DNA from: a virus
Virus record (IMG/VR): IMGVR_UViG_3300006109_000001
Span: 1-49,597 of that record
Length of the DNA: 49,597 bases
Strand: one strand, 5' to 3'
Shown here: one piece after another, positions 10,794 through 49,597 of the stretch
Layout: every line of letters starts with the position of its first letter
Numbering within the stretch: the stretch's first letter is position 1
The notes under the pieces: generated by a model
What the model saw: only the letters and a program-made list of their open reading frames with translations
Database searches by the model: none
What the model was told of the DNA's origin: nothing
Translations under genes and position numbers: made by a program

Positions 10794-10846
10794 CTTTACA
10801 ATCCAATGTCAACAACTTTACAATCAGCCGTCAAAACTTTACAAAA
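10794..10846 (+). repeat. Three direct repeats (iterons) CTTTACAATC
   Basis: Copies lie at 10794-10803 and 10816-10825 (identical, extended to AACTTTACAATC) and at 10837-10846 (CTTTACAAAA). Spacing is 22 and 21 bp, i.e. two helical turns. The reverse complement of the same motif forms the array at 48963-49016. Confidence 0.8.
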
Positions 10847-10899
10847 ATGTTAACAAAACTGTTGATATGGCTACTTTTTGTCAATAACTGTACATATAG

Positions 10900-10943: not shown

Positions 10944-10973
10944 TTACTAGACACAAAATTATTTGTCTAGTAA
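10944..10973. repeat. Inverted repeat TTACTAGACA / TGTCTAGTAA spanning a gene end
   Basis: Perfect 10-bp arms with a 10-base loop overlap the last codons and stop of the HslV-like gene. The sequence could act as a terminator hairpin for either block, but there is no immediate U-run. Confidence 0.6.
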
Positions 10974-11387
10974 TGAATAAGTTTTTATAGGCTCATGGCT
11001 TTTTAAATCTACATTGCAAGCCCATTTAACTGCTTCTTCTGCGGACAAGCCCATTCTCATGCAGACTTCGGCTGCCATTGCACCAGAACCAATAGCCATA
11101 AAGGTTTTAGCGCGTTCCCATTCAAGATCGTCACCACAATAAAAAAGACCTTCTTTAGTTAGCCTAATAAAAGAACTATCAGGCTTGAGCTTTGGTTTAA
11201 CTTTGCTTTTCTTATTGATGTAATCCACTACTTTTTCGCAATCGCTCCAATTGCCGGCCACGCCTAACCACCCGCCATCTATTGCGACAATTTTTTCTTC
11301 AAAATATTTAATGCCAGTATCTTCGTCTGAAAATTGACTATCCGATACCAAGATTTTTTTGTCCCAATCACCAACGATAGTAGTCAT
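10959..11387 (-). CDS. HslV-like (proteasome-type) Thr peptidase
   Basis: A 142-residue Ntn-hydrolase resembling bacterial HslV. The start at 11387 gives MTTIVGDWDKK, the same opening as E. coli HslV, where removal of Met exposes the catalytic Thr1. Counting from that Thr, D15 (SDSQ), K31 (FEEKI) and the IGSG motif align with HslV D17, K33 and the S125 region; AGNWSD matches AGGTAD, and GLSAEEAVKWAC matches the C-terminal helix. The ATG overlaps the previous stop (ATGA), so it is preferred over the GTG at 11402. No HslU ATPase is encoded. It may recruit the host unfoldase, act alone, or be an inactive relative. Confidence 0.8.
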   Translation of the reverse strand: MTTIVGDWDKKILVSDSQFSDEDTGIKYFEEKIVAIDGGWLGVAGNWSDCEKVVDYINKKSKVKPKLKPDSSFIRLTKEGLFYCGDDLEWERAKTFMAIGSGAMAAEVCMRMGLSAEEAVKWACNVDLKSHEPIKTYSLLDK

Positions 11388-12367
11388 ACTTTTGTTATGC
11401 ACCCACGAAATTCTATTTCTCCGTTTTCTTCATCGGACACCATAATCATCTCTGGCATTAGCATCCGGCCTTGGTCAAAGGATAGCATCACAAAGCCACT
11501 GCGCCAATCTTTAGGAGAATCCTCGCAATACTCGAAGGTACTGGACATCGGATCGGCCAAACAACCGGTCTGGATGCCCCAAAATGTGCCTTGAAAATTG
11601 GAAATCGGCTGGCAAGCAAGGACGTGCGTATGGCCAGTGATAATGTTGGTATTACCCGCCGCCAGCAAATTGCTGTAGCCAGCGGTGCGGCCACCTTTAA
11701 ACCGGTGTTTTACTACGGTATCTTCGCCAATCCAGAATGACCAACAAGTTTCCCAGTTGGGGAAATGGTACTTTAATGAGAAGCCATCTACACCGCTGTA
11801 TTCGGGGACTTTATTGACTAGCCAAGCCTCGTATCTCATATCATGGTTACCCAACGTCCATATTAGTCGGCAGCCAGCAGGTCTATGTTTCTCGATTTCA
11901 TCTAAATGCTGACGGCAAGCCTTGAGTTCTTCTAGGACACTAGGCTTTTGATCGTAATTAATGCTTGGAAAACGGCTTAAAACCTGCCCATCGAACGCAT
12001 CGCCGTTGCAGATGATGACCTCTGGCTTGAATTTTTTAATCATCAACAGGAGGGCTTTAAAGGCCGTTGTGGTGGTGTCGGTAAAGTGGGCATCTGAGAA
12101 CACAATGATGCGTTTGACTTTATCTACCTCAATACCCCTTCGGACATTGTGAGCTGCCAACTCAACCTTTTTAGGTTTAGGCTTAATTTGATCGCGTTGG
12201 GAATTATGGGTAGCCAATTTAATGCCAAGCCGGGTTTCAATACTGCTTCGCCTTCTCATGACACTAGAAGAAGCAACACCCAGCTTTTCAGCCATTAAGA
12301 CAGGAGAGCCTAGTTTAGCCCAAAGGTCTATAAATTCTTGATCTGTGCATACAAGTTTCAGTGCCAT
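11384..12367 (-). CDS. Calcineurin-like metallophosphoesterase with N-terminal HTH
   Basis: A 327-residue protein with all metal motifs of the metallophosphoesterase superfamily: FSDAHF (D92, H94), NGDAFDG (D123), LGNHD (N174, H175, D176), VVKHRF (H221) and TGHTH (H246, H248). Residues about 15-50 look like a helix-turn-helix, suggesting DNA contact. Such phage enzymes may be nucleases or phosphatases. It is transcribed with, and translationally coupled to, the HslV-like peptidase, at the very end of the structural/lysis block. Confidence 0.88.
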   Translation of the reverse strand: MALKLVCTDQEFIDLWAKLGSPVLMAEKLGVASSSVMRRRSSIETRLGIKLATHNSQRDQIKPKPKKVELAAHNVRRGIEVDKVKRIIVFSDAHFTDTTTTAFKALLLMIKKFKPEVIICNGDAFDGQVLSRFPSINYDQKPSVLEELKACRQHLDEIEKHRPAGCRLIWTLGNHDMRYEAWLVNKVPEYSGVDGFSLKYHFPNWETCWSFWIGEDTVVKHRFKGGRTAGYSNLLAAGNTNIITGHTHVLACQPISNFQGTFWGIQTGCLADPMSSTFEYCEDSPKDWRSGFVMLSFDQGRMLMPEMIMVSDEENGEIEFRGCITKV

Positions 12368-48962: not shown

Positions 48963-49016
48963 GATTGTAAAGCCACGCCGGCCGGATTGTAAAGCCACGC
49001 CGGCCGGATTGTAAAG
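48963..49016 (-). repeat. Tandem 22-bp iterons with core GATTGTAAAG
   Basis: GATTGTAAAG lies at 48963-48972, 48985-48994 and 49007-49016, exactly 22 bp apart. The first two units are identical over 22 bp (core plus CCACGCCGGCCG). The core is the reverse complement of the repeats at 10794-10846. Confidence 0.9.
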
Positions 49017-49242: not shown

Positions 49243-49404
49243 TTACTTGGGCGTGTGACCGCCGCCCTGTTTACCGTTCTCTCTTGCTGCTTTAACTTTA
49301 GCTTCAGAGTTGGACTTACCGCCCTTTGAACCCATAGCTTTACCAGCCGAAGAAAGATTCGTATATTTAATTGAACCTGAATCGTTGCGTGTTGGTGTAC
49401 TCAT
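49243..49404 (-). CDS. Small Gly/Lys/Ser-rich protein with KGG motif
   Basis: A 53-residue protein (MSTPTRNDSGSIKY..., KAMGSKGGKSNSEAKVKAARENGKQGGG). The SKGGK...KAARENGKQGG pattern resembles small KGG-motif proteins of bacteria and phages, which are poorly understood and may bind nucleic acid. SD AAGGATACGGAT precedes the ATG. It is the last gene of the leftward replication operon. Confidence 0.6.
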   Translation of the reverse strand: MSTPTRNDSGSIKYTNLSSAGKAMGSKGGKSNSEAKVKAARENGKQGGGHTPK

Positions 49405-49465: not shown

Positions 49466-49597
49466 CTAGGCACTTCTCTTTATGTCTAGTACCACTGCCT
49501 TTGGTTCAGGTGGCGCTTCAATCATACGGCGCAGCTCTGACTTGCTATGAGTTTTAGCTACCTCAGGATCAGCAAAGATACGCTTCTTGTTCGGTTG
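49466..49597 (-). CDS. Primase-helicase, 3' end across the circular junction
   Basis: The frame from position 1 continues here: positions 49478-49597 repeat 1-120, and 49477-49466 add Arg-Ser-Ala and the TAG stop. Unbroken translation across the join supports circularity of the assembly. Confidence 0.85.
   Translation of the reverse strand, partial: QPNKKRIFADPEVAKTHSKSELRRMIEAPPEPKAVVLDIKRSA
49478..49597 (+). repeat. Terminal 120-bp direct repeat of positions 1-120
   Basis: Exact copy of the first 120 bases. It lies inside the coding sequence of the primase-helicase, so it most likely marks assembly overlap of a circular or circularly permuted genome rather than physical terminal repeats. 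Confidence 0.9.

Follow-up and report, generated by a model that had tools for sequence, protein, structure and literature searches.

Why would a tailed phage carry, in two separate gaps between converging genes, short arrays of one and the same asymmetric 10-bp site? We asked this question for the phage genome contained in a window of 49,597 nucleotides (the window being the whole stretch of DNA analysed). Bases 1-120 of the window are identical to bases 49478-49597, and these identical 120-bp ends indicate that the genome is circular, with a length of 49,477 bp. It belongs to a tailed phage, and among its genes are those for terminase, portal, tail, polA, primase and nuclease functions; a Limnohabitans phage has one gene in common with it, at 36% identity. 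The array-bearing phages may be from freshwater habitats, to go by the IMG numbering. The motif GATTGTAAAG was found exactly five times in the whole window, always within two mutually inverted arrays (10794-10846 and 48963-49016), with spacings of 22/21 bp in array 1 and 22/22 bp in array 2. The arrays and the features next to them are the following:

10794..10803, minus strand: array 1 copy 1, exact GATTGTAAAG, which reads CTTTACAATC on the plus strand
10816..10825, minus strand: array 1 copy 2, exact match, 22 bp from copy 1
10837..10846, minus strand: array 1 copy 3, degenerate TTTTGTAAAG (8/10), 21 bp beyond copy 2
10847..10868, no strand: imperfect palindrome ATGTTAACAaaacTGTTGATAT, adjoining array 1
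10959..11402, minus strand: HslV-peptidase-like gene (phrog_1040), 3' end towards array 1, given for context only
48963..48972, plus strand: array 2 copy 1, exact GATTGTAAAG
48985..48994, plus strand: array 2 copy 2, exact match, 22 bp from copy 1
49007..49016, plus strand: array 2 copy 3, exact match, 22 bp from copy 2
49243..49404, minus strand: small KGG-repeat protein, from translation, 3' end towards array 2, given for context only

The five exact sites, the near copy at 10837 and the 21-22 bp spacings had been reported by a first-pass annotation and were confirmed, as was the location of both arrays at convergent gene blocks flanking the replication genes; the separation of 11.3 kb that it gave holds on the 49,477-bp circle. 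The genome-wide motif count that it had asked for revealed nothing beyond the two arrays and no scatter, and sites with one mismatch are single, dispersed and at about chance level. Both arrays sit in convergent gaps. Array 1 is followed by the palindrome and a short ORF, and array 2 is found on the far side of the primase gene, which spans the circle junction. The palindrome is retained beside the array in six relatives (L032, L034, L042, L043, L045 and L062). We also noticed a perfect 10-bp inverted repeat, TTACTAGACA...TGTCTAGTAA, at the 3' end of the HslV-like gene (10944-10973), which is probably a terminator.

We then looked at how widely the arrays occur, scanning IMG/VR for two motif copies 18 to 26 bp apart. 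At least 119 stretches, many of them from records that are fragments, carried GATTGTAAAG pairs 21/22 bp apart, versus 8 stretches with the reversed-motif control, and three perfect copies were present in 25 stretches. Among the matches listed the period was 21 bp in 73 cases, 22 bp in 60 and another value in five (133/138 at 21/22 bp). When the flanks were clustered with the motif masked, the 21/22-bp arrays fell into 23 clusters, and the phage types that carry them are unrelated. Contigs mostly held one array and almost no further motif copies in their whole records; the paired inverted layout of the window, to which the first-pass annotation had drawn attention, is therefore incidental. One contig (L042; G014:5884-6118) has two arrays about 180 bp apart within a single gap.

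We gathered 80 polA relatives of the window phage blind to the motif and scored pairs of at least 18/20 at spacings of 15 to 30 bp; every such pair had a spacing of 21/22 bp, and the rest of this range gave none. They were confined to 4/80 relatives, the closest ones, while 76/80 were without arrays, and the element is therefore dispensable on many hosts. Comparison with close relatives, from which the arrays might have been absent, found both of them retained (L124). The array-2 locus is also syntenic in the more diverged L125 (primase about 83% identical in nucleotides) and G008 (about 68%), where, compared with the window, the cores are conserved and the spacers have diverged. Cores retained between diverged spacers, and copies that change in concert, would fit direct repeats that are needed for function.

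The placement of the arrays proved to be variable. They occur within genes as well as in gaps and upstream of genes, in either orientation, and the genes bearing them include a gp59-like helicase loader (T4), a CobS-like AAA protein, a NUDIX/head-protease, polA (antisense), a tail-fibre gene and others, the array being sense to the host gene in some and antisense in others. T4-like contigs illustrate this well: the array is in gp59 in G002, G005, G025 and G031, in CobS in G015 and G022, whose own gp59 shows no trace of it, and in a third gene in G027, where CobS lacks it. Array position is thus exchangeable in T4-like phages. Judging from these contexts, position and strand seem irrelevant, which would make it likely that the arrays serve in DNA binding and unlikely that they act as RNA or as ordinary promoters. 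We gathered gp59 homologues by their protein similarity; at the same codons some have GATTGTAAAG x2, some GATTGTATACTTA x2 and some GATTGTAAACTTA x2, and others are without a repeat. Both copies of a pair shift jointly to GATTGTAAAC or GATTGTATAC, and this joint change points to a shifting binding specificity. Pairs of the GATTGTAAAC class were also found 21/22 bp apart in unrelated phages, and 21-bp pairs of the GATTGTATAC class were seen in gp59 only.

Which protein could bind these sites? All-against-all clustering of 17 array contigs, the window and one bacterial contig (L203) gave no phage-encoded binder common to the phage types. An exact-motif scan of 84,980 genomes returned 27 stretches, chiefly coding or satellite repeats, and L203 alone, a contig of a Burkholderiaceae metagenome-assembled genome (G041), had the right form. 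It carries the following gene:

L203:1398-2417: P0001, a 339-aa wHTH-GHKL-DUF4325 protein

Pfam assigns to P0001 a winged HTH of the MarR type, a GHKL ATPase and, at the C terminus, a STAS-like DUF4325 domain. The best PDB match to its confident AlphaFold2 model (pLDDT 87) is the anti-sigma kinase SpoIIAB (E 1.1e-5), so that, as modelled, P0001 combines the winged HTH, the SpoIIAB-like GHKL fold and the C-terminal STAS-like domain that define this architecture. Upstream of the gene, CTTTACAATC-N11-CTTTACAATC stops a few bases short of the start codon; the 10-mer pair in phages is identical to the tandem operator of this one DUF4325 gene. The form CTTTACAATC-N10-13-NTTTACAATN has one site in 393 Burkholderiaceae genomes, at the P0001 gene, and the looser tandem TTTACAAT has 9 sites in 399 Burkholderiales genomes, 4/9 of them at DUF4325 genes (twice in G041, and in G525 and G716, corresponding to three intact genes and one truncated paralogue). 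The tandem operator in G716 ends in CTTTACAAAAAT, the same degenerate last copy as in array 1 of the window. The truncated second copy in L203 (991-1240) has its own operator pair, differing by one base, and is probably a tandem duplication.

The association extends to the family as a whole. A 10-mer repeat (at least 9/10) at 21/22 bp was found in 27/49 distinct DUF4325 upstream regions versus 2% of controls, which were real composition-matched windows from the same loci (p ~6e-33), and periods from 15 to 40 were otherwise not enriched; shuffles served as a further control. Upstream of a DUF4325 gene the array classes would be expected to read CTTTACAATC, GTTTACAATC or GTATACAATC. At L311, L312, L314, L315 and L337 the tandem motifs upstream of DUF4325 differ (GTTTACAAAAA, TGTTTACAT, ACGTTTACAAGA and others), and the specificity of the family is therefore diverse. 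DUF4325 genes were found in 28/399 Burkholderiales genomes and on 27 IMG/VR contigs; the regulator is sporadic, often prophage-borne, and in its build resembles components of immune systems. Most of the genes stand alone, with no defence genes beside them in the stretches covered. HMMs for the DUF4325 protein or its HTH found none in phage loci, those fetched for DUF4325 aside; PADLOC gave nothing for the protein past a weak HTH similarity, a literature search on DUF4325 returned incidental mentions only, and one on the motif gave, among the matches listed, unrelated ones only.

Taken together, these results led us to consider, as the best-supported reading, that the arrays are operator-mimic DNA decoys directed against the wHTH-GHKL-DUF4325 family, a proposal based on sequence to which we give an even chance. 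As the motif matches a DUF4325 self-control operator, the phage copies are probably decoys soaking up the protein. The layout, 2-4 copies of an asymmetric 10-bp site (CTTTACAATC/GATTGTAAAG) with a 21- or 22-bp period, would mirror the putative autoregulatory operators upstream of solitary bacterial or prophage wHTH-GHKL-DUF4325 genes, the window phage itself being without the protein. Replicating phage genomes, each with two or three sites, would sequester the host or prophage DUF4325 regulator and so blunt whatever it does against the phage. The arrays are independent of place and strand, and each replicating genome has one or two of them; titration is therefore the most parsimonious mechanism. 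We infer, then, binding of the phage arrays by a DUF4325 protein, a cognate member of which the hosts would have, and that it would act against phages and be countered by titration. DUF4325 proteins are not known as anti-phage, which weighs against the decoy proposal, and if the protein were an autorepressor only, titration would raise its expression and not neutralise it. Also against it stand the PADLOC result, the solitary setting of most of the genes, the 76/80 polA relatives without arrays, the finding of exact CTTTACAATC operators at DUF4325 in one genome only, and a tandem pair of the 10-mer in Peptoniphilus (see below).

A more general form of the proposal, which we hold tentatively and at somewhat less than an even chance, is that several virulent phage types carry counter-defence arrays sequestering single-chain wHTH-GHKL-STAS regulators or effectors, with arms-race switching of specificity by concerted change, and that this class is widespread and previously undescribed; the arrays would sit, again tentatively, in intergenic gaps or within permissive stretches of essential genes. 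To our knowledge, the counter-defences described for phages are mainly proteins and RNAs, and a DNA-only, position-independent decoy chiefly from the aba element. If the proposal is true, DNA decoys would be common in virulent phages and discoverable by sequence alone, the arrays would point to the uncharacterised DUF4325 wHTH-GHKL family as an anti-phage factor, and selection would be able to shape the codons of an essential gene into a DNA-binding array.

The closest known parallel is indeed aba, which silences the prophage defence protein BstA, an abortive-infection KilA-N protein (Owen et al. 2021, PMC8585504). This element is 63 bp long with CCCGCC ends and overlaps bstA of the same prophage; it acts as DNA, only on high-copy replicating DNA, its direct repeats are essential, and with cognate specificity it shields the phage bearing it (PMC8585504). 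The arrays are similarly short direct-repeat DNA and look like the 5' region of a gene that is sporadic, prophage-associated and codes for a DNA-binding domain. Such a resemblance between an element and the upstream part of the gene whose product it suppresses is found again at L203, the suppressed protein presumably being DUF4325. With their different motif and protein family they are not aba proper (KilA-N BstA with a 63-bp CCCGCC element). Unlike aba, they consist of 21/22-bp tandem operators of another family, lie in phages without that protein, have lineage-specific placement and specificity switching, and are known here from sequence alone. What is new could plausibly be described as an aba-like DNA immunity of unusually wide and shifting distribution.

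DUF4325 proteins also hold the same module set (GHKL, STAS-like, wHTH) as CapK/CapS and VapKSC, in which a GHKL kinase, a STAS protein and an autoregulating wHTH repressor control immune operons upon DNA damage (PMC13373217); VapKSC protects against a phage (EMBO J 2026, PMC13373217). Those systems have two or three genes with an immune operon downstream, and their TTAA operators are palindromic, whereas DUF4325 proteins are single-chain (wHTH-GHKL-STAS-like) and solitary, with direct-repeat operators. They do not belong to CapK/CapS, defined by capK (HTH-STAS-GHKL) with capS (STAS-wHTH) and, in most cases, an immune operon after it, being single-chain and solitary in the stretches seen. The abortive-infection factor IbfA, an ATPase+TOPRIM protein, is set apart by its domain description. 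Stoperators of cluster A mycobacteriophages, as outlined in PMC6550527 and PMC9283540, are likewise short asymmetric repressor sites away from promoters; according to the same outlines they are numerous single sites that bind the phage's own repressor and halt transcription, unlike the arrays, usually one per genome and with no phage-encoded binder found among the clustered contigs. Synthetic DNA sponges and transcription-factor decoys resemble the arrays in that multicopy sites titrate a regulator, as their abstracts describe (PMC7686491, PMC7826281); they are engineered, and these abstracts mention no natural phage version.

Other readings of the arrays have to be weighed against the DUF4325 decoy. 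The arrays could bind another host protein, such as an OmpR/PhoB-type activator or a nucleoid protein, that is titrated or recruited, the DUF4325 match being a convergent -35/-10-like sequence. This is unlikely in our view, even though two CTTTACAATC copies 21/22 bp apart spell out a sigma70-like promoter, TTTACA-N17/18-TACAAT, a sequence on which operators placed on promoters would converge. The same 10-mer pair lies upstream of pstS in Peptoniphilus, and other regulators are therefore able to use such sites; moreover, neither the 84,980-genome scan nor the 393 Burkholderiaceae genomes gave the exact operator, or the exact cognate DUF4325, in a demonstrated phage host, a single genome having the exact CTTTACAATC pair at DUF4325. 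However, DUF4325 genes stand at four of the nine tandem TTTACAAT sites although only some millionths of the sequence belong to their promoters, array 1 and a DUF4325 promoter have the degenerate third copy CTTTACAAAAAT in common, and there is no in-between 11-bp repeat of the Pho-box kind. The arrays do not correspond to a Pho box or OmpR-type box, having no copy at 11 bp and annotated contexts unrelated to phosphate genes. The Peptoniphilus pair (L208:1748-1779), before pstS/pstC-like genes, is likely a Pho-type box and was set aside as a DUF4325-like match. The sigma70-like reading, which suits the 21/22-bp period, also raises the idea that the arrays are promoters or operators used by the phages themselves, a host regulator (DUF4325 or other) driving an antisense RNA or a small ORF. 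The array of the ATGGCAACTAAA group directly 5' of a start codon, and the palindrome and short ORF after array 1, are in line with it. We consider it quite improbable, as arrays are found in sense and antisense orientation, many are inside unrelated coding genes, those of the window would fire against the adjacent genes, and the copies remain identical with no divergence into -35 and -10 roles. In one polA relative (L138:15996), tandem AACTTTACA repeats with a 22-bp spacing immediately precede the rightward operon and may represent the motif in a promoter-type form.

The first-pass annotation had favoured a function in replication or segregation, as origin iterons, as a termination system or as a partition site, and the iteron-like 22-bp period, the position of array 2 beyond the primase gene and the flanking of the replication genes would fit. 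Nevertheless, the same arrays are found in unrelated phages and replicons, in varied genes and both orientations, and this shifting among genes does not fit any of the three; no conserved initiator is nearby, and GC skew, computed to locate an origin or terminus, tracks gene strand only. What the motif matches is the operator of a bacterial regulator family, and nothing that is encoded close to the arrays. Origin iterons are defined by one conserved locus with an initiator gene, and here the locus varies between and within lineages. We therefore regard such roles as very unlikely. What stands of the earlier interpretation is that the arrays are functional direct repeats with helical phasing, and not ordinary promoter operators here; its origin, terminus or segregation part does not. 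We find it scarcely credible that the arrays are chance or a by-product of protein repeats (DCK / KIVK / TLQS): the Ancylomarina match and a few IMG/VR matches are coding repeats, but the arrays occur in varied reading frames, on both strands and between genes, their 22-bp spacing breaks the frame, the control gave 8 stretches against at least 119, and gp59 variants are concerted. In conclusion, the array is real, conserved in close relatives and not an origin, and a role as anti-defence decoy is plausible. The polA relatives have quite different iterons in another gap, which also speaks against an origin at the arrays. These 11-bp iterons lie in the divergent gap that precedes the late operon and form a system separate from the arrays; they are lineage-specific (TGTGGGTCATG x3 with inverted or further copies, at L163:11224, L167:16531, L175:17325, L131:6860, L132:7485 and others) and are possibly the relatives' own origin or regulatory region.
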